DNA of 64,000 nucleotides, from the NCBI GenBank assembly GCA_900498135.1, contig LR026961.1, positions 3,773,101-3,837,100 of the forward strand. Reading direction: 5' to 3'. Under the pieces are notes generated by a model. That model ran no database searches. It was not told the origin of the DNA and worked only from the letters and a program-made list of their open reading frames with translations. A program made the translations under genes and the position numbers. Positions within the stretch are counted from its first letter, which is position 1. Every line of letters starts with the position of its first letter. Source of the DNA: an uncultured Desulfatiglans sp. Its GTDB lineage: Bacteria; Desulfobacterota; DSM-4660; Desulfatiglandales; Desulfatiglandaceae. Positions 524 through 29,781 of this stretch are shown here, in pieces.

Positions 524-753
524 AGTTTCCATCCGGAAATGGTCTTTTTGCCCAATCTCGGCGTCAATCTGCACGTTTGCTTGTGCGGCGACCTGCAGGT
601 CGCCTCCGCACAAACGCTTGATTTCCTTGATATTGGCCAAACCGGGACCCGCCCCGCAGGGGTGGGACTGAGCACGCGCAGCGTGTAAAGAAAAATCCTC
701 ATTTCCGGATTGGAAATTGAGTTCTACCGGAAAATCATTTCCGGATGGAGACT
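524..753. repeat. MITE-like element, about 230 bp, with inverted ends
   Basis: The ends 524-541 and 736-753 are inverted copies (CATTTCCGGATGGAGACT at the right end) matching at 17 of 18 positions. Near the middle is a nested palindrome with TTGTGCGG at 581-588 and CCGCACAA at 606-613 around GACCTGCAGGTC. No credible coding sequence lies inside. The right end belongs to a roughly 40-nt repeat found again at 4283-4322 and, inverted, at 21505-21546. A small non-autonomous element fits these features. The stretch 467-523 between this and the stem-loop shows nothing else. Confidence 0.5.
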
Positions 754-755
754 CC

Positions 756-1916
756 TTAACGCTTGAGAAATCTCAGAAACTGTCTACCCTTTGAGGCTTT
801 CTGCTTGTCCGGAGGGATAAGGCTATCCGTCAAGCGCTTCAAGGCGTTCGATATCTCTGCTTTAGGGGCGAGATCGATCAAAGGTTTCCCCAGGTTGATG
901 GCGGTCATCGTTGTGTAATAGTCATTTGGAAGAACGAAGAAAAAATCTTGGCCGATAGCCTCCTCCGCATCCTTCAAAGCGATGTCCGATTTCTTCAGGC
1001 ATCGGTTTGCGATAACGTTGATATGCTCCTTCGGATACCCGAGTTCCTTGTAAGATTGTAGCAATTTCCTTGTGTTGGCAAGGCACGGCAGGCTCAGAAT
1101 GCAAAGGAGCAGTAAATGGTCCGCCATCTCGAGGATAGCGAGAGAGGTCTCATCCGTGGAGTGACCGGTATCGACGACGATAAATCTGTAAATTTCCTTG
1201 AGCAGCATGAGGATATGTCGAGCGATCTCAGGTGTCGCCCTCTCATTACCGCTTAACGAATGGGGCGAAGCGAGAACATCGAGACCCGATGAATGCTTGG
1301 TCATGACGCTGGCAAGAAACGTATTGTCGAGCCGGTCTATATTCCGTGAGATTTTTCCCCAGTGATATTTTGGATGAATATCCAAAAAAACCGGTATCTC
1401 TCCGGAAACGAAGTTCATGTCGACCAGAACCACGCTCGGGCGTGATTTTCTTTTTGCCAGGTTGACGGCCAGGTTGACGGCTGCTGTCGTGGTCCCCACC
1501 CCGCCTTTGCTCCCGGTTACGTGAAGGATCTTGCAGCTTTGCTCATCGTCCACGCCGGAGGTCGAAGGCGTATGCCTCAGCCTGAACCCTTCGAGCGCGT
1601 GCTTTACCTCCTCGACTGGAATGGGTTGGGGGAAGAATTCCTTCACCCCGAGCCGCATGGCGCGTCTCAGCAGGCCGGGATCGACTTTGTCGGAAGTGAG
1701 AAAAATCTCCCCTACAGCCTTCTTCTCGAGGAGCGATTCGATCAATGCGAACTGCGCTTCGACCTTATCTCCCAGTTCCAGGATCAAGAGATCGGGCTGC
1801 CGTTTGTCCGTGGGATTCAGAATGTCGAATCCCTCTGTAAATCTGATTATCTCTTTGAAGGTTTCCGTGTTTGTGTTATCGGTTGACAAACTGACCAAGA
1901 TGGTGTCTTTGGGCAT
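756..1916 (-). CDS. tadZ: Tad pilus localisation ATPase TadZ/CpaE
   Basis: The 386-residue protein has the two-part layout of CpaE/TadZ: a degenerate receiver-like N-terminal domain (about 1-115) and a MinD/ParA-type ATPase domain. The ATPase carries a deviant Walker A, GSKGGVGTTT, at 135-144, followed by the beta strand VVLVDMNF. TadZ proteins mark the site where the Tad machine assembles and recruit its other parts. The ATG at 1916 is chosen because AGGAG lies 5 nt upstream; an in-frame TTG directly before it is less likely. It is the last tad gene on this strand. In complete loci tadA, tadB and tadC normally follow, but here the next sequence is the MITE-like element and IS110 remnant. Confidence 0.88.
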   Translation of the reverse strand: MPKDTILVSLSTDNTNTETFKEIIRFTEGFDILNPTDKRQPDLLILELGDKVEAQFALIESLLEKKAVGEIFLTSDKVDPGLLRRAMRLGVKEFFPQPIPVEEVKHALEGFRLRHTPSTSGVDDEQSCKILHVTGSKGGVGTTTAAVNLAVNLAKRKSRPSVVLVDMNFVSGEIPVFLDIHPKYHWGKISRNIDRLDNTFLASVMTKHSSGLDVLASPHSLSGNERATPEIARHILMLLKEIYRFIVVDTGHSTDETSLAILEMADHLLLLCILSLPCLANTRKLLQSYKELGYPKEHINVIANRCLKKSDIALKDAEEAIGQDFFFVLPNDYYTTMTAINLGKPLIDLAPKAEISNALKRLTDSLIPPDKQKASKGRQFLRFLKR

Positions 1917-1984
1917 CAAAGCTCCTATGCCTGCAATATATATAATCTGTGAAATCTGTTTGATCTATCAATAAAAGCAATCTG

Positions 1985-3307
1985 CTACTGCACCAGAACC
2001 GGATGTTTCGCCAGAATGCCGAAATTGTTCATGGATGAGTTTCCAATCGGCTTATGCGGGCTGCAATCAGGGATGAAGTATATGGTGTTCTTCATGAAAT
2101 CAGCCGGCGTATTGTTGCTGTAAACTGAATTCAGGCGAAAATGTTTGGCGAAGGAGATCCAACACGCCTCTCTTCCTTCGGCGGTGCCGAGATCGATCGA
2201 GTTCCCGTCTGCGTCCACGAGGCAATCCGCCGACTGGCTCCAGTCCGAAATACCCATTTCAGGGACGCCTTCCATCTCCACAGGGATATCGTTGTATTTG
2301 GATACGGAGGCGTTGTCTTTCGCCCAAACGATATAAAGCGTCAGCACCCCCGCCAAATCCAATCTCCCGCTTGGATTGCGGCTGTCTCCGCAGTCGATGA
2401 CGGGCAGCGTCACCTTCCAGGGGGTGGTTTTGTCCGTGATCTTTTCCCAGCAGTAAACCAGGTCGTCATACAATGGCTGCAAGGCCCCGCCGGTGGCTGA
2501 AAGCCCCAGGTTGAAGAAGATCGGATCCGTGTTTCCTCCTTCACAAACAGGGCGGTCGATAAAGGGGAGGATATCGTTCGTATTGGCCCCTCCGTCCTGA
2601 TCCAGGTTCGCCCATGCCGCGGTATTGAAGGTGTCCGCGTTGCTGCCGCTGTTGGTGGTGCGTCCGTAATCGCAGGTGTACTTTCCATGGACGCTTTGAT
2701 CCTGGGTGATGGCCTGTGCGCACAGGGTGAGGGGCAGATCCACGTCATAAGCCTCTATGGAGCCGGCGAACCCGATCCATGCAACCGCACTTGCCTCCAG
2801 CGCGAACCCTTCATAGCCGAAGATCCGCGCGAAAAAGGCTGTCACAGGGGTGCCTTGCCGCCTCACAGCCACTCGAACCGCATTGATGAAGTCCGTGTTT
2901 TCGGCCAACTGCTCATCGCTGACATCCCAGAGCTCGGTCGGCAAGGTGGAGGCGTTCTCTACAAAGGCGTGGCTGATCCAGTTCCAGTGTCCTCGCTGGA
3001 TGTCGCCGGTGTTGGAAGCATAATCCTCTCCGGTCTCGATTGCAAGTCCCTGGCTGAGATGGGCGATCGCCGTTTCATAGGCGGCCTCGTTGGCCTCGGG
3101 ATTGACGGCCGAGCCGTCCTCGAGGTAAAGGACCTGCGCGCCGGCCAGGGCTGCGGCATCGGCGGCATTCTGAAGCTCGTTCCTGGCAGCCAGCAGATTG
3201 GCGATGTCGATGGCCAGGGCGGCGAACCCGATGAGAATGACGATGGAGAAAGCGGTCAGGATGGCGACCGCGCCCTTCTGATCCCTTAGCATGGCGGGCA
3301 AAAACAT
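1985..3307 (-). CDS. tadG: TadG-like pilus assembly protein
   Basis: A 440-residue protein with the N-terminal TadG/TadE-type module: a short basic start, KGAVAIL at about 12-18, one membrane helix, then the typical run IDIANLLAARNELQNAADAAALAGA. The rest is a long periplasmic domain with several cysteines and no clear von Willebrand A fold. TadG-type proteins are minor pseudopilin-like or anchoring parts of the Flp pilus. A GAGGAG ribosome site precedes the ATG. It sits 28 nt downstream of tadE and 68 nt upstream of tadZ, in one operon. The C-terminal domain is not recognised. Confidence 0.8.
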   Translation of the reverse strand: MFLPAMLRDQKGAVAILTAFSIVILIGFAALAIDIANLLAARNELQNAADAAALAGAQVLYLEDGSAVNPEANEAAYETAIAHLSQGLAIETGEDYASNTGDIQRGHWNWISHAFVENASTLPTELWDVSDEQLAENTDFINAVRVAVRRQGTPVTAFFARIFGYEGFALEASAVAWIGFAGSIEAYDVDLPLTLCAQAITQDQSVHGKYTCDYGRTTNSGSNADTFNTAAWANLDQDGGANTNDILPFIDRPVCEGGNTDPIFFNLGLSATGGALQPLYDDLVYCWEKITDKTTPWKVTLPVIDCGDSRNPSGRLDLAGVLTLYIVWAKDNASVSKYNDIPVEMEGVPEMGISDWSQSADCLVDADGNSIDLGTAEGREACWISFAKHFRLNSVYSNNTPADFMKNTIYFIPDCSPHKPIGNSSMNNFGILAKHPVLVQ

Positions 3308-3335
3308 CTCATCGCTCCTCTGCTTCTTGGAGTCA

Positions 3336-3818
3336 TCAGCTCGAAACGCTGTCCTGGTTCTCTTTGCGCATGAGACTCGTGGCTCTGAGCGTGATCGACC
3401 CGTCCATGGTCCCGGAGAAAAAGGCTGCGAGGAAATCCGGCAAAATTAGAAAGGTGTAGGGGTATTGGACGGTGACCTGGATATGCTTGTGTCCGTTCAG
3501 GTCCACGGAGGGATCGACGTCTACGGTGGCGGTGCTGCCGGTGCAGCCAAGGGAGATGAGGTTGTTCGAGATGTAATGGTCCACGATTCCCTCTATGTAA
3601 TCCTGAGTCGGGTCTTCCTCCCGGTAGAGACTTCCCGCCCGGGCGCCTTCACGACTGGCGTTGGTGATCATCGCCTTGTCGTAGAGGAGGATGCTGAACT
3701 CGATGATTCCGATCAGGATGACGAGCAGGAGAGGCAGGATGATCGCGAATTCTATCGCGGCCACGCCACGCACATCCTTCACGCCTGCCGAAAAGCGAAT
3801 AGGGGATGATCGTTTCAT
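3336..3818 (-). CDS. tadE: TadE-like pseudopilin
   Basis: The 160-residue protein starts with a short basic leader and then RGVAAIEFAIILPLLLVIL, the TadE signature, with the prepilin-like conserved Glu in a single hydrophobic helix (about 20-45). It continues with NASREGARAG, also typical of TadE. TadE proteins are cleaved by the Tad prepilin peptidase and are needed for pilus biogenesis. The ATG at 3818 is preferred over an upstream in-frame TTG at 3863, since the leader then has normal length. It lies between the small exported protein and tadG. Confidence 0.85.
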   Translation of the reverse strand: MKRSSPIRFSAGVKDVRGVAAIEFAIILPLLLVILIGIIEFSILLYDKAMITNASREGARAGSLYREEDPTQDYIEGIVDHYISNNLISLGCTGSTATVDVDPSVDLNGHKHIQVTVQYPYTFLILPDFLAAFFSGTMDGSITLRATSLMRKENQDSVSS

Positions 3819-3886
3819 AATAGCCTGTTCCCCGTGCGCAGTCCTGTCCAAAATACGCTCCAATGCCCCGCATGCCCTATGCGGGT

Positions 3887-4192
3887 CTACATGCCGGAGG
3901 ACCCGAAACTGACGCTGTAAATCGGCCTGGGCGCCGCCTTCTCAAAACTCTTGTGATATTTGTTCATGATGCTGCCGGCCGTCTGGCCATCGATCGCTTC
4001 GACCGCTCGAGCACGCTCTTCCGATTCTACGGGATGGATGATCTGGCTGTCCCTGACGGTTTCAAAGGACTGTCCCCAACGGACATCGAGCGGCATTTCC
4101 TTTTTGACGAAGATCTCCTTGCAGGCGCAGCCCATCTGCAGGCTGAAAAGAAACGCCGCCAATTGCAGCCATATCACATGTCTGGTCACCAC
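3887..4192 (-). CDS. Small exported Tad-locus protein, possible lipoprotein
   Basis: The GTG at 4192 has a strong upstream GGGGGAG and gives a 101-residue protein. Its first 20 residues form a hydrophobic export signal ending at LQMGCAC, which resembles a weak lipobox. The mature part is hydrophilic and contains VEAIDGQTAGSIMNKYHKSFE, a kind of conserved tail I associate with small proteins of other Tad loci, though without a confident family name. Its position between the secretin and tadE suggests a CpaD-like outer-membrane helper; this rests on context. A longer frame from a TTG at 4234 is possible but has a worse ribosome site. Confidence 0.6.
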   Translation of the reverse strand: MVTRHVIWLQLAAFLFSLQMGCACKEIFVKKEMPLDVRWGQSFETVRDSQIIHPVESEERARAVEAIDGQTAGSIMNKYHKSFEKAAPRPIYSVSFGSSGM

Positions 4193-4282
4193 GTTGCTCC
4201 CCCTTGCGAGGTGGTTGGCGATGTTACGATCCAATTGAGCGTCTCACGGAAACCGCTTCTTGTTCGAGCTTCAATTCCGGGC

Positions 4283-4322
4283 GGAAACTGGGTTCTACCG
4301 CGAAATCATTTCCGGATGGAAA
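4283..4322 (+). repeat. Dispersed intergenic repeat, copy 2
   Basis: This stretch matches 712-753 at most positions, sharing GTTCTACCG, AAATCATTTCCGGATGGA and flanking bases. It abuts the stop codon of the secretin gene. A third, inverted copy is at 21505-21546. Confidence 0.6.
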
Positions 4323-5777
4323 CTACTTGGTTTCCGGTAAGCTGTAGCCAAATGGCCCCTCCACTTCGCCGTGAATCTTCGGCATGCGCTTGTCTCCGCG
4401 CCCCTCGATCAAGCCTTCCAGGAAGAATTCCTTGTAACTCGGCTCTGTGAAATGCTCCCCCGGCAAAACCACATCCTTCGGCTTGAGGGGCTTGACGAGG
4501 TGAGGCGTTGCGATGATCACGAGCTCCGTCTCGCTCTTCTGAAAAGAGCTGCTTCTGAACAGTGCACCGAGAATCGGGATGCTGCCCAGAAACGGGTACT
4601 TCTGAACGTCTTCCTTGATGGTTTCCTGCAGAAGCCCGGCAATGGCGAAGCTCTGGCCGTCGCCCAGTTCAATGACGGTGGCGGCCTTGCGAGTGCTCAG
4701 ACCCGGGATGACGTAGCCTTCCAGGCGCAGGGCGAAGCTGAAGTCGAGTTCGGAAACCTCCGGTTCGACCTGGATGCTGATCTTGTCCTCGTTCAAAACC
4801 GTGGGGGTGAAGACGAGTCTCACACCGAATTCCTTGAACTCGATGGTGGTTTCCCCGAACCCGCCTGAAATGGGGATGGGGTATTCCCCTCCAGCCAGAA
4901 AAGAGGCGGTCTGCCCGCTCTGGGTGATCAGGGTGGGCTTGGCGAGGATCTTTACCAGGCCATCCTGGTTGAGCGCGTCGATGAAGCCGGTCCAGGTGAC
5001 ATTGCCGGTCGTGAAGCGGAAGAGGGCGTCCACAGCGGAACTGTAGGCCAGCCCCAGTGGGCCCGCCCCGAGGACCGCATCAGACCCCTTGACTACCTGG
5101 CTAAGCCCTCCGAGCGTGGTGATCCCGAAATTGCCGCCCCTGGTGACCGCTGCGATGTTGATCCCCAGCCGGTTGGCGATCGTGCGCTTCATCTCGGCTA
5201 CCCGGACCTCCAGCATGACCTGGTGGATTCCGCCCACTTGCACCAGGTTGATGATCTTCCCCTTGGTGTCGTCACCGGTTCTCGGCGTGAAGGCCTCGGC
5301 GAGGGACAATGCGTGGGAGAGCTTCGCGGCGCTCGAAATCCTTCCCAAAAGGGTGATGGAATCGCTCGTGGCGATGACCTGGATATCTTTTTCTTCCGGA
5401 AAGACCTCGTACAGTTTCTCTTTCAGGCGCGACACGTCGTAGACGACTTCGATATCGCGCACCGTAAAGTGGTCATCGTCATGCCAAATGATCAGGTTCG
5501 TGATCCCGGCGGATTTTCCGGTCAGATAGATCTGACGCGGCGAAACGATCACGTATTGAAGGACGGCCGGGTCGGGCTCCGAAATCCGCGTAACAGGCCT
5601 GGGCGTCTCGAAGATCATTGAACGGCCGGAAACGAGGGTCAGTTTTTCAGCCTGGGAAAGAGAATCCTGCGCTCTCGCGTTTCCAACGATTGTCAGCAGA
5701 ACAGTCAGGAAGGGGAGCAGCACCCCTATAAGAACAAGAACAGCCAATCGTGGTCGAACGCGAAAACGAGCCGTCAT
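4323..5777 (-). CDS. cpaC: Tad secretin RcpA/CpaC
   Basis: A 484-residue secretin with an N-terminal export signal (basic start and hydrophobic stretch to about 35, ending NARAQ). It has an N-terminal pilus-secretin domain with PDPAVLQY and GKSAGITNLIIWH, a BON-like segment, and a C-terminal secretin domain ending in the family signature around PFLGSIPILGALFRS with ETELVIIATPHLV. CpaC/RcpA forms the outer-membrane channel through which the Flp pilus exits. The ATG at 5777 follows TGAGGAAAATCG, and the gene begins 9 nt after cpaB ends, so the two are probably co-translated. Confidence 0.93.
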   Translation of the reverse strand: MTARFRVRPRLAVLVLIGVLLPFLTVLLTIVGNARAQDSLSQAEKLTLVSGRSMIFETPRPVTRISEPDPAVLQYVIVSPRQIYLTGKSAGITNLIIWHDDDHFTVRDIEVVYDVSRLKEKLYEVFPEEKDIQVIATSDSITLLGRISSAAKLSHALSLAEAFTPRTGDDTKGKIINLVQVGGIHQVMLEVRVAEMKRTIANRLGINIAAVTRGGNFGITTLGGLSQVVKGSDAVLGAGPLGLAYSSAVDALFRFTTGNVTWTGFIDALNQDGLVKILAKPTLITQSGQTASFLAGGEYPIPISGGFGETTIEFKEFGVRLVFTPTVLNEDKISIQVEPEVSELDFSFALRLEGYVIPGLSTRKAATVIELGDGQSFAIAGLLQETIKEDVQKYPFLGSIPILGALFRSSSFQKSETELVIIATPHLVKPLKPKDVVLPGEHFTEPSYKEFFLEGLIEGRGDKRMPKIHGEVEGPFGYSLPETK

Positions 5778-5786
5778 CGATTTTCC

Positions 5787-6653
5787 TCAATTGCCAGTGT
5801 AGGGGATACTTAACGTGGACACCTGCCCGTTCCGTATGACCTCTATCGTGTGCTGCCGCGGCAACCGCTGGAAGGTGACGGCGGGTTTCCGCTCCATCTC
5901 GGTTTCGGCCTGAGGGGCCGTGTAGGAGGCAAGGGTTTCCGAGATGTCGGCGCCTTGGGTGAGGACAATATCCTGGTCCATCAGATTTTTCAAGGCGAAT
6001 TGGAGCACGCCCTGTGTGGCGGCGAGGCTCAATTTTTCACCCTCTTCCGGCGTTACCTCCAGGGTGTAAACGTCCACGGGGTTGGGTTTCCCTTCGGCGT
6101 CTTCGACCATTGTAGAACCCGTGGCAAGGACTGGAATGTTTTGAAGCACGACCTTGGTAACGTCCTTATCCCGGTCCCTTTCGGGGTCCTCTAACGTAGC
6201 GAGAACATCGACGCGGCTGCCCGGGATGATGAAGCCGGCCAGCCCCATGACCTTATCCCCGCGGACGGCGACGGCCCGTTTTCCGGGCGTTACAACCGCC
6301 GCTACTCCCCCGGTCTTGACATCGATGGGGGCGAGGCGCGATTCCGTCACAGGTTCCTGCTCCTTGAACGGGGTGATGGTCACCCGGCCTTCGAGGAGTT
6401 GAGGATCGGAAAAATGCCCTTTTGGCAGGCTTTCTTTCAGATATTTGACCGTCTTCAGCATCTCGGGCTTGAGTCTGGTCCCCCAGGGGATATCACCCAA
6501 GGCTGCCACAACCGGAACCGCCTCGGTCGGTTGGACCACAGTCACCTGTGTTGACGTCCCCTGAACGCGCAGCCAGCGATAAAGATAGAGACTCACCACC
6601 CCTGCAATGATCAGCGCCAGCAAAAAAGGGATGACCGCTTTCCACCTTCCCAT
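5787..6653 (-). CDS. cpaB: Flp pilus assembly protein CpaB/RcpC
   Basis: A 288-residue protein with an N-terminal membrane helix (about 8-28) followed by a SAF domain with PVVAALGDIPWGTRL and VTITPFKEQEPVTESRL, then the RcpC-type domain with RAVAVRGDKVMGLAGFIIPGSRVDV. CpaB/RcpC works with the CpaC secretin in the periplasm during Flp pilus assembly. Length and motif order are normal for the family. It lies 9 nt upstream of the secretin gene and 89 nt downstream of the prepilin peptidase gene on the same strand. Confidence 0.92.
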   Translation of the reverse strand: MGRWKAVIPFLLALIIAGVVSLYLYRWLRVQGTSTQVTVVQPTEAVPVVAALGDIPWGTRLKPEMLKTVKYLKESLPKGHFSDPQLLEGRVTITPFKEQEPVTESRLAPIDVKTGGVAAVVTPGKRAVAVRGDKVMGLAGFIIPGSRVDVLATLEDPERDRDKDVTKVVLQNIPVLATGSTMVEDAEGKPNPVDVYTLEVTPEEGEKLSLAATQGVLQFALKNLMDQDIVLTQGADISETLASYTAPQAETEMERKPAVTFQRLPRQHTIEVIRNGQVSTLSIPYTGN

Positions 6654-6742
6654 CTCGGACGACCTCTCAATGGACTGTTAGATATTTAAAGTCAGGGGAA
6701 GCAGGCTGTCCGTCCGGACGGCCAAAAAAAGACGGAGGATTT

Positions 6743-7303
6743 TCACCACGAGATAGGACGATAACCGGTAATTTCAAACAGCATAAAGATAAAAGTCCCC
6801 GCTGCGATTGCAATCCCGTAAAACAGCTTGGGTTTCGGTTCGCTGCTCGGGGATTGAGCTGAGCTGAACTGCCGGGTGTAAAAAAAGGTTTTGAGCGTCG
6901 TTGCATAGCTTGGGAGGGCTTTCCGGGCATAGTCTCGTTTCACCACCAGAAGAATAGCGGCATAAATCCCACCGCAAACAGCTGTAAACAGGGCTACCAG
7001 GACGACACTCTTTGCGCCGAGTACCGCTCCGATCGCACCCAGCAGTTTGGTGTCACCCGCTCCCATGACACCCAGTAGGTAGGGCAAGAGAAACAAACCA
7101 ATTCCGGCAGCCAATCCACCGACGCTGAAAAGTAAGCCGTCAATCCCGTTAAGGATGGAATGAAAAATCATTGCGGCAGCCATAGTGCCATACGTAATAA
7201 GATTGGGTATTTTTTGAACGCGGAAGTCCCTAAAGGCAACCAACAGTAAAATTGCAGCGAGATATAAATAAGATATGTTATAAATGTTATCAGGAAAAAG
7301 CAT
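6743..7303 (-). CDS. cpaA: Type IV prepilin peptidase of the Tad type (TadV/CpaA)
   Basis: A 186-residue polytopic membrane protein with the two aspartates of A24 peptidases: D26 in FRDFRVQKIPN and D84 in the GxGD motif (GAGD at 81-84). About six membrane helices are visible. It lacks the N-methyltransferase domain of classical PilD, as Tad-dedicated enzymes do. It should cleave the leader of Flp and the TadE pseudopilin at the inner membrane. It lies between flp and cpaB, and 208 AT-rich nucleotides separate it from flp. Confidence 0.92.
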   Translation of the reverse strand: MLFPDNIYNISYLYLAAILLLVAFRDFRVQKIPNLITYGTMAAAMIFHSILNGIDGLLFSVGGLAAGIGLFLLPYLLGVMGAGDTKLLGAIGAVLGAKSVVLVALFTAVCGGIYAAILLVVKRDYARKALPSYATTLKTFFYTRQFSSAQSPSSEPKPKLFYGIAIAAGTFIFMLFEITGYRPISW

Positions 7304-7430
7304 TTGGTGAATTACAATGCAAAAAGAAGTAACTGCGACAAGTTAATTTAAATTTAAAAGGTATATATTACTTTTTAGGCAACAATATATTAGCTAAGAT
7401 CATGCGAATATAAAGATTAAATACACATAA

Positions 7431-7479
7431 TTGCAACCGCCTTCGACTAATCTAAAAGAATTTCCGATGGCGGTTGCAA
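7431..7479 (-). terminator. Stem-loop after flp, probable partial terminator or mRNA stabiliser
   Basis: TTGCAACCGCC at 7431-7441 pairs perfectly (11 bp) with 7469-7479 around a 27-nt loop. On the minus strand it lies just after the flp stop and is followed by an AT-rich but not oligo-T stretch. Such a hairpin between a major pilin gene and downstream assembly genes would let pilin mRNA be more abundant than the rest of the operon. Confidence 0.55.
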
Positions 7480-7511
7480 ATTTTTAAGGGTTTGCACCTT
7501 TACGAAACACT

Positions 7512-7691
7512 CTAACCGGTTGGTGCTTCAGTCGTAAGCTTGCTAGAAACTTCCTCGAAAATATCAGTTAGACCTCCACCTAAAGTCGTTAAAGCACCAA
7601 TTATAACAACTGCCACCAACGCCGCGATCAAGCCGTACTCGATAGCCGTTACGCCCTCTTCATCCTTCAAGAAACTCCATAATCTCGACAT
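7512..7691 (-). CDS. flp: Flp-type major pilin
   Basis: A 59-residue prepilin. The leader ends at Gly13 and the mature chain begins VTAIEYG, with the conserved Glu at +5 followed by Tyr, the Flp motif. The single hydrophobic helix (about 17-40) is followed by a short polar tail. The ATG at 7691 follows a strong GAGAGGAGG site at ideal spacing, so the longer open frame starting 42 nt upstream is rejected. It is the first assigned gene of the tad operon and lies about 480 nt downstream of the riboswitch on the same strand. Confidence 0.93.
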   Translation of the reverse strand: MSRLWSFLKDEEGVTAIEYGLIAALVAVVIIGALTTLGGGLTDIFEEVSSKLTTEAPTG

Positions 7692-8169
7692 GTGCTGTCC
7701 TCCTCTCCCCTTGGAAGTCATGTGGTGCTCCAAAAATTAAACCCGAACCGAAAAAGCCTTCCTCCTTGGAAATGAAACCGATTTTCCGTGTCACTGCTTT
7801 TTAGGGTTATCCACCTCCTTCCAGTAATGAGTGACAAAAACTTTCGCGCAGAATCCGCCTCCTTGGCAGGTGTTCATCAAAGCGCTGCAGGATTGATTCC
7901 TTAAGCCAGCCATGCCCTTGGCCACTCCTGTAAGGTATGTCTCGAGCAAGGATACGAGCCAGCGCTTCAGAAAACCGAGGAGCACCCTGAGAAGGCATCT
8001 TGAGCTCATTCTCAGTGGAGGCTGAATGTTCCCGCGAATAGGGGAGGGAAGAGTAGAGGAGGAATCAGGTAAGCAATCACTCCTTTGCCCGGATGGCATG
8101 GGATACCATCGAAGACCAGCACAGCCCGGAGTTCAGGCCATACAAAGAAGCAACCCCATCACCTGTCTC
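7692..8169 (-). other. Long leader between riboswitch and flp; unassigned open frames
   Basis: These 478 nt lie between the riboswitch aptamer and flp. An open frame on the minus strand at 7791-8099 (102 codons) and a shorter one at 7807-7998 have no recognisable motif, no good ribosome site, and use codons unlike their neighbours. They could be a small unknown gene, a decayed gene or chance. A small hairpin (GATGG/CCATC) near 8088-8106 lies just downstream of the aptamer and might belong to its expression platform. Confidence 0.3.
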
Positions 8170-8265
8170 GACACTCACTAAAGGCAACCCGGCTGTCTCG
8201 GAGAGACCCTAGGCTTTCCGTCCCCACCTCGCGATGGCTTAGGCTTTTTCTATAGCTGAGTCGAT
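8170..8265 (-). promoter_or_regulatory. Cyclic di-GMP-I (GEMM-I) riboswitch, variant, upstream of flp
   Basis: On the minus strand the order matches GEMM-I: a P1b hairpin CCATC-GCGA-GGTGG with a GNRA tetraloop, then GGACGGAAAGCC (normally GACGCAAAGCC), a GTCTC/GAGAC hairpin, and AGCCGGGTTGCC closing the second helix. Flanking bases near 8250-8262 and 8172-8182 can form P1a. By alignment to the V. cholerae Vc2 aptamer (numbering recalled, not computed), the ligand-contacting G20 is kept at about 8244 and A47 at about 8217. The G21-C46 pair appears swapped to C21-G46 (8243 and 8218). Such co-variation supports a real fold. It sits between a promoter and the flp operon. Confidence 0.8.
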
Positions 8266-29272: not shown

Positions 29273-29346
29273 TGGGGGATCGTCCAGCGGCAGGACGACG
29301 GGTTCTGGCCCCGTTAACCGAGGTTCGAATCCTCGTCCCCCAGCCA
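29273..29346 (+). tRNA. tRNA-Gln (anticodon CTG)
   Basis: Full cloverleaf with encoded CCA: acceptor TGGGGGA pairs with TCCCCCA, D stem GTCC/GGAC, anticodon stem ACGGG/CCCGT with loop TTCTGGC (anticodon CTG), T stem CGAGG/CCTCG with loop TTCGAAT, discriminator G, then CCA at 29344-29346; 74 nt in all. A GlnRS gene lies 15 kb downstream, so this tRNA may be charged directly. Confidence 0.95.
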
Positions 29347-29411
29347 CTTTTTTTCGGGCTTGTGGTTTAAGAAGAGGCGTTGCAGCACACTGCGCGCGTT
29401 TGTATGTTGAA

Positions 29412-29663
29412 GGTCCCATCGTCTAGCGGTTGAGGATAGTATCCTAAACCGCTAGACGATGGGCATTGAAATTAAGTTCCGTTTTTTCAATTTCAGGTCC
29501 CATCGTCTAGCGGTTGAGGATAGTATCCTAAACCGCTAGACGATGGGCATTGAAATTAAGTTCCGTTTTTTCAATTTCAGGTCCCATCGTCTAGCGGTTG
29601 AGGATAGTATCCTAAACCGCTAGACGATGGGCATTGAAATTAAGTTCCGTTTTTTCAATTTCA
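29412..29663 (+). repeat. Three identical 84-nt tandem units made of a folded-back tRNA-Glu 5' half
   Basis: Units start at 29412, 29496 and 29580 and are identical; the fourth period boundary (29664) is exactly the first base of tRNA-Glu. Each unit opens with GGTCCCATCGTCTAGCGGT, the same as the tRNA's first 19 nt, and matches on to position 27 except two D-loop bases. It then turns back: CCCATCGTCTAGCGGTT pairs perfectly over 17 bp with AACCGCTAGACGATGGG. Inside are AGGAT/ATCCT and a 3-nt loop (first unit 29415-29463). The remaining 32 nt have a T6 run and short AT inverted repeats, with alternative pairings 29465-29471/29485-29491 or 29467-29473/29489-29495. Function unknown. Confidence 0.9.
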
Positions 29664-29739
29664 GGTCCCATCGTCTAGCGGTCCAGGATATCGGCCTCTC
29701 ACGCCGGGGACACGGGTTCGAGTCCCGTTGGGACCACCA
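29664..29739 (+). tRNA. tRNA-Glu (anticodon CTC)
   Basis: Complete 76-nt cloverleaf with CCA: acceptor GGTCCCA/TGGGACC, anticodon stem TCGGC/GCCGG (outer T-G wobble) with loop CTCTCAC (anticodon CTC), T arm ACGGG-TTCGAGT-CCCGT, discriminator A, CCA at 29737-29739. Its 5' end is the last member of the 84-nt periodic array. Confidence 0.95.
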
Positions 29740-29750
29740 AGGAAAAACAA

Positions 29751-29781
29751 GGGGTTGCGCCAAAAGCGTAGCCCCTTTTTT
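29751..29781 (+). terminator. Rho-independent terminator after tRNA-Glu
   Basis: GGGGTTGCGC (29751-29760) pairs with GCGTAGCCCC (29766-29775), using two G-U pairs, around CAAAA, and is followed by TTTTTT. It ends the tRNA unit. Confidence 0.85.

Follow-up and report, generated by a model that had tools for sequence, protein, structure and literature searches.

Three palindromic repeats of tRNA-Glu 5′ sequence with an apparently foreign leader at the start of a tRNA-Glu gene in an uncultured Desulfatiglans sp.

The window, a 64,000-nucleotide stretch from the genome of an uncultured Desulfatiglans sp. (a single 4.80-Mb contig, here G000), carries an array of three identical 84-bp units between a tRNA-Gln gene and an intact tRNA-Glu gene, ahead of a terminator-like hairpin (Table 1). 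Shuffled sequences yield 1.3 such terminator-like sites, and the support for this hairpin is mainly its conservation in G001, a relative from the same genus. The identity of the three units, their phasing with the start of tRNA-Glu at 29664 and their placement between the two tRNA genes and before the terminator had all been put forward in the original prediction and are borne out here. Each unit is composed of a forward tRNA-Glu 5′ part of 27-28 nt, an inverted 5′ part of 25-26 nt and a spacer of 31 nt; the insert amounts to 252 bp (3 x 84) and contains no genes, and the array lies far above chance expectation. Within the array region, no Rfam families besides tRNA were matched. A 20-bp sequence is common to the native tRNA-Glu gene, all units of the array and the tRNA-Glu of G004, a genome from another genus of the same family. 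The forward arm had been predicted to be followed by its own reverse complement; in fact one D-loop base differs between the two arms, and the inverted arm is exactly complementary to a tRNA-Glu of the G004 type. The order tRNA-Gln then tRNA-Glu is the ancestral arrangement in the family, and relatives from both the family and the order usually show it, with intervening spacers that are unrelated and mostly short. Elsewhere in the window, a c-di-GMP-I riboswitch aptamer (8180-8254, minus strand) exceeds the Rfam gathering score.

Table 1. Features of the array and its surroundings (positions are those of the window)
Feature	Position	Strand	Description
tRNA-Gln(CTG)	29273..29346	+	ARAGORN, Rfam; same tRNA pair in most relatives
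84-bp unit 1	29411..29494	+	forward tRNA-Glu 5′ part, inverted tRNA-Glu 5′ part, apparently foreign leader
84-bp unit 2	29495..29578	+	identical to unit 1
84-bp unit 3	29579..29662	+	identical to unit 1
20-bp sequence AGGTCCCATCGTCTAGCGGT	29411..29430, again 29663-29682	+	both insertion ends lie inside, judged from the empty site of G001
Inverted arm, unit 1	29438..29463	-	26/26 reverse complement of G004 tRNA-Glu CCCATCGTCTAGCGGTTTAGGATACT
Inverted arm, units 2 and 3	29522-29547, 29606-29631	-	identical to the arm of unit 1
G004-like stretch, 62 bp	29461..29522	+	95% identical to G004 leader and tRNA-Glu start
Apparently foreign tRNA-Glu leader CATTGAAATTAAGTTCCGTTTTTTCAATTTC	29464..29494, 29548-29578, 29632-29662	+	26/26 core match at G004 tRNA-Glu
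Native tRNA-Glu(CTC), intact	29664..29739	+	ARAGORN, Rfam; identical to G001
Terminator-like hairpin	29749..29777	+	3′ of tRNA-Glu; conserved in G001

The corresponding locus of G001, located on a 231-kb contig, reads GTATGTTGA-AGGTCCCATCGTCTAGCGGTCCAGGATATCGG and lacks the array. Its flanks are nearly identical to those of the window as far as the terminator, the alignment of the two genomes is continuous across the insertion junction, and removal of the 252 bp from the window restores the G001 arrangement, with both ends of the insert falling within the shared 20 bp. The empty site and the identical tRNA-Glu gene of G001 show the array to be a clean insertion (3 x 84 bp) at the native gene's 5′ end. 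G001 also possesses about 7.2 kb of its own between tRNA-Glu and a cation-transporter-like gene (L079 about 578-7782; G001 C5:68877-76081), with genes for a DUF4168 protein, a histidine kinase, a sigma-54 response regulator and an NMT1-type binding protein. A reading of this difference as the trace of an attachment site was dropped, the recognised genes being the kinase, the regulator and the binding protein.

The likely source of the inserted material is indicated by G004, whose sole tRNA-Glu(CTC) gene stands alone, preceded by a GGDEF-type gene and a putative promoter, TTGCAA-17-TATTTA (both read from sequence), and by the leader GGGCATGCAAATTAAGTTCCGTTTTTTCAATTTCA. The spacer of the window matches the core of this leader at 26/26 positions, with two changes near the spacer start, and the 62-bp match, which begins with GGGCAT just past the G004 -10 box, runs on into the tRNA. 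Among 395 genomes of the phylum searched with up to 3 mismatches, the spacer core was found in G000, in G004 and in one unrelated genome, where a single match with 3 mismatches is chance-like. A divergent form of the leader occupies the same place, after the same gene, in G025, a member of G004's genus, and the leader is therefore native to this genus. Protein-coding sequence flanking the locus shows only 65-72% identity when G000 is compared with G004 or G025; with a near-identical non-coding leader set against this value, and none in the sister genome, vertical descent is not an easy explanation, and the pattern is that expected of the horizontal transfer of a short segment. The inverted arm, AGTATCCTAAACCGCTAGACGATGGG, tells the same story, as its exact complementarity to tRNA-Glu of the G004 genus includes GGATACT, a variant absent from most other relatives; those inspected have GGATACC, GGATATC or GGATAAC at this position. 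On these comparisons, the spacer and inverted arm appear to derive from the tRNA-Glu leader and gene of another genus. No donor with the exact forward-arm variant GGTTGAGG was found in 85 genomes, and three bases separate the unit from its G004 counterpart, so that the genomes compared do not include the actual donor.

As RNA, a single unit is predicted to fold into a hairpin of 8+17+5 bp (-45.1 kcal/mol, z = -9.9), and the full array reaches z = -14.9. The hairpin of 17+5 bp foreseen for each unit is therefore present, but its stem is longer than supposed because the leader (AATTTCA / TTGAAATT) pairs too. Two of the three differences between the unit and G004 lengthen the stem and the third weakens it. 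Selection for stem-improving leader changes was dropped as an explanation in view of this third change; the two lengthening differences are nevertheless a possible hint of selection.

How such a unit could have been assembled is suggested by parsing the locus through dynamic programming, with both strands of G001 and G004 as templates and a switch penalty of 6. The cost was 68 with both templates, compared with 174 with the native locus alone, each unit being resolved into one inverted G004 segment (0 mismatches) and one direct G004 segment (3 mismatches), with native sequence outside the units. Junction overlaps amount to about 1 nt from forward to inverted and 3 nt (GGG) from inverted to forward. 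The locus displays features characteristic of template switching, namely a neighbouring template copied as its reverse complement and switch points that are abrupt, as seen in the two-segment parse and the 26/26 arm, and an ancestral state in relatives, represented by the empty site of G001 and the single leader of G004. To judge from the sequence, the junctions look like the product of a template switch by fold-back and a subsequent return switch upstream. A relic of template switching was among the origins originally considered, and the two-segment parse, the short overlaps and the empty site in the sister genome support it. There is documented precedent for hairpins arising in RNA genes by this mechanism (PMC8794818).

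The array is accordingly best read, with a probability of roughly two in three, as a one-off mutational scar in which a short foreign pre-tRNA-Glu fragment underwent fold-back template switching and tandem amplification. This would have involved the entry of a short DNA fragment from a G004-like bacterium and its annealing to the shared 20 bp; a switch from the forward strand at GGATA to the opposite strand, and back at GGG, would have generated the palindrome, in either the donor or the recipient; and slippage during replication, or unequal recombination of the direct repeats, would have given rise to the three copies. That all three are identical implies a recent amplification and also means that the order of transfer and fold-back cannot be read from them. 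The genome encodes homologues of ComEC and DprA, which count in favour of DNA entry, although both proteins are widespread and are no proof of competence. Counting against a scar are the absence of the actual donor from the genomes compared, the length of the shared sequence, 20 bp being short for ordinary homologous recombination, and the two stem-lengthening differences noted above. The array had been thought to belong to no described family; no other member was found, but the mechanism required is of a known kind. The feature is real and its cause of an ordinary class, whilst the product is unusual and well resolved. An RNA-mediated origin, site-specific insertion, a small-RNA function and an artefact are less likely rivals.

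In the RNA-mediated scenario, a 5′ fragment of pre-tRNA-Glu would have been copied, with fold-back, by a reverse transcriptase and inserted as DNA. The foreign segment does start near the predicted transcription start of G004 and end within the tRNA, and the genome contains three reverse-transcriptase loci adjoining group II intron RNA (L115, L116 and L117). However, the segment includes one base, the C in GGGCAT, that belongs to the discriminator and precedes the expected start, the source of the RNA would need to be another genus and no integration machinery was seen at the locus, leaving this origin improbable. Site-specific integration, with the 20-bp tRNA-Glu start as the attachment site and either small circles inserted in tandem or the residue of an excised element, would account for the location of both insert ends within the same 20 bp and for a length that is an exact multiple of the unit. 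This too is unlikely, as no integrase or other element gene accompanies the tRNA, the insert lacking genes and the adjacent 7.2 kb specific to G001 having no recognised mobile-element gene, and the unit is absent from viral, phage and plasmid sequences; integration at the 5′ end of a tRNA is, moreover, unusual. Fold-back chimeras are a known library artefact, and an error of sequencing or assembly, either of this type or through a chimera in a mixed culture, has to be considered; it is unlikely, given that one 4.8-Mb contig includes all three exact copies, with native sequence attached on either side, and that the foreign segment departs in ways of its own from the only relative known. As a separate observation, the group II intron reverse transcriptase of L117 has a TAG inside its matched frame.

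With regard to function, the array is probably transcribed within the tRNA-Gln/tRNA-Glu precursor, since most relatives have the two flanking tRNA genes side by side, and RNase P and RNase III would then trim it away. A second tRNA-Glu gene in the genome, with a TTC anticodon (read from sequence), could in principle cover both codons, so any mild damage would be tolerated. There is no sign of a specific role and none is proposed. The hairpin RNAs might be imagined to act on tRNA-Glu metabolism, either as decoys for RNase P, GluRS or modification enzymes or as antisense RNAs that lower tRNA-Glu(CTC). In favour of this, the array lies inside a tRNA transcription unit, base pairing is predicted between the inverted arm and 23 bases in the 5′ part of tRNA-Glu (-40.9 kcal/mol) and the global minimum-energy fold traps the tRNA, 9.3 kcal/mol below the best fold containing a cloverleaf. 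Against it, each hairpin can close before the tRNA is synthesised, making the trap kinetically unlikely, the array occurs in one genome only and its copies are identical, so that evidence from compensatory pairs is impossible. Such a role thus has little probability, and the decoy, small-RNA and hot-spot readings entertained originally find no support in a feature with a single genome, no conservation and no second locus. Still less probable is a hairpin unit that moves between bacteria, inserts in tandem at tRNA-Glu starts and acts through its transcripts on tRNA-Glu processing.

Among known systems, the rtT RNA of the Escherichia coli tyrT locus (Rfam RtT) also involves tandem repeats that include a portion of a tRNA gene and lie within a tRNA transcription unit; its repeats contain the tRNA 3′ end, lie downstream and form no fold-backs, whereas the array contains the 5′ part. 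No match to the RtT model above the gathering score was obtained at the array. REP and CGTC-tagged palindromic repeats (PMC3733652) are likewise short intergenic palindromes, and the array arm contains CGTC, but REPs exist as many scattered copies, whilst the array was found at one locus in the genome and its arm is tRNA sequence. Template-switch or quasipalindrome mutations (PMC8794818) resemble it in the reverse-complement copying of nearby sequence, in switch points with little or no homology and in the sudden appearance, within an RNA gene, of a long hairpin that is nearly perfect; they differ in that the array has a foreign tRNA-Glu leader as its template and a product repeated three times. 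Illegitimate recombination, including the homology-facilitated form, shares the small heterologous insert, the short identity at the ends and the lack of a mobile element (e.g. PMC3240628 and work cited in PMC5312590), although the present insertion is clean, palindromic and has both ends in the same 20 bp. The array provides a well-resolved example of a long RNA hairpin arising suddenly, for which the empty site, the source and the product can all be named, and it points to conserved tRNA starts as places where very short pieces of foreign DNA can gain entry and fold back. If such arrays were common or expressed, they would offer a route to new tRNA-derived small RNAs; so far, this is a single case.

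The search of the unit across related genomes called for by the original prediction returned no copy, fold-back or array in 45 other genomes of the family. There is no second copy elsewhere in the genome, and when 44 tRNA genes were checked singly for a displaced self-copy within 500 bp, only the tRNA-Glu of the array was found, besides single 13-mers common to neighbouring tRNA genes. The unit was also missing from viral, phage and plasmid collections, and no fold-backs of the TAGCTCAG-type tRNA were detected in viral contigs or in 85 genomes of the class. A scan of the genomes of about 85,000 species, confined to exact matches to a conserved tRNA-Glu motif and perhaps leaving out the window's own genome, produced no tRNA-derived fold-back; ten places in Actinobacteria, Chloroflexi and others were rejected as short hairpins with only TCGTCTAG..GG and no tRNA-Glu gene near. 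No relevant literature on arrays of tRNA 5′ halves in bacteria was found. Direct repeats of the tRNA-Glu start at 23 places in viral contigs proved to be tandem phage tRNA genes, coding repeats or degenerate tRNAs, with no half-gene arrays among them. Two viral contigs, L109 (near 813, minus strand) and L113 (near 6054, plus strand), contain tandem tRNA-Glu-like sequences that are uncalled by ARAGORN and seemingly have no normal anticodon arm. Hairpins of the form TCGTCTAG..GG / CC..CTAGACGA outside any tRNA context occur at L032, L033 and L037, all from Corynebacterium mucifaciens, and at L028-L030 and L034. In C. mucifaciens, one such hairpin is present on each of three contigs, each near a similar 'ttccccaggtg', and these may represent a repeat family of their own.
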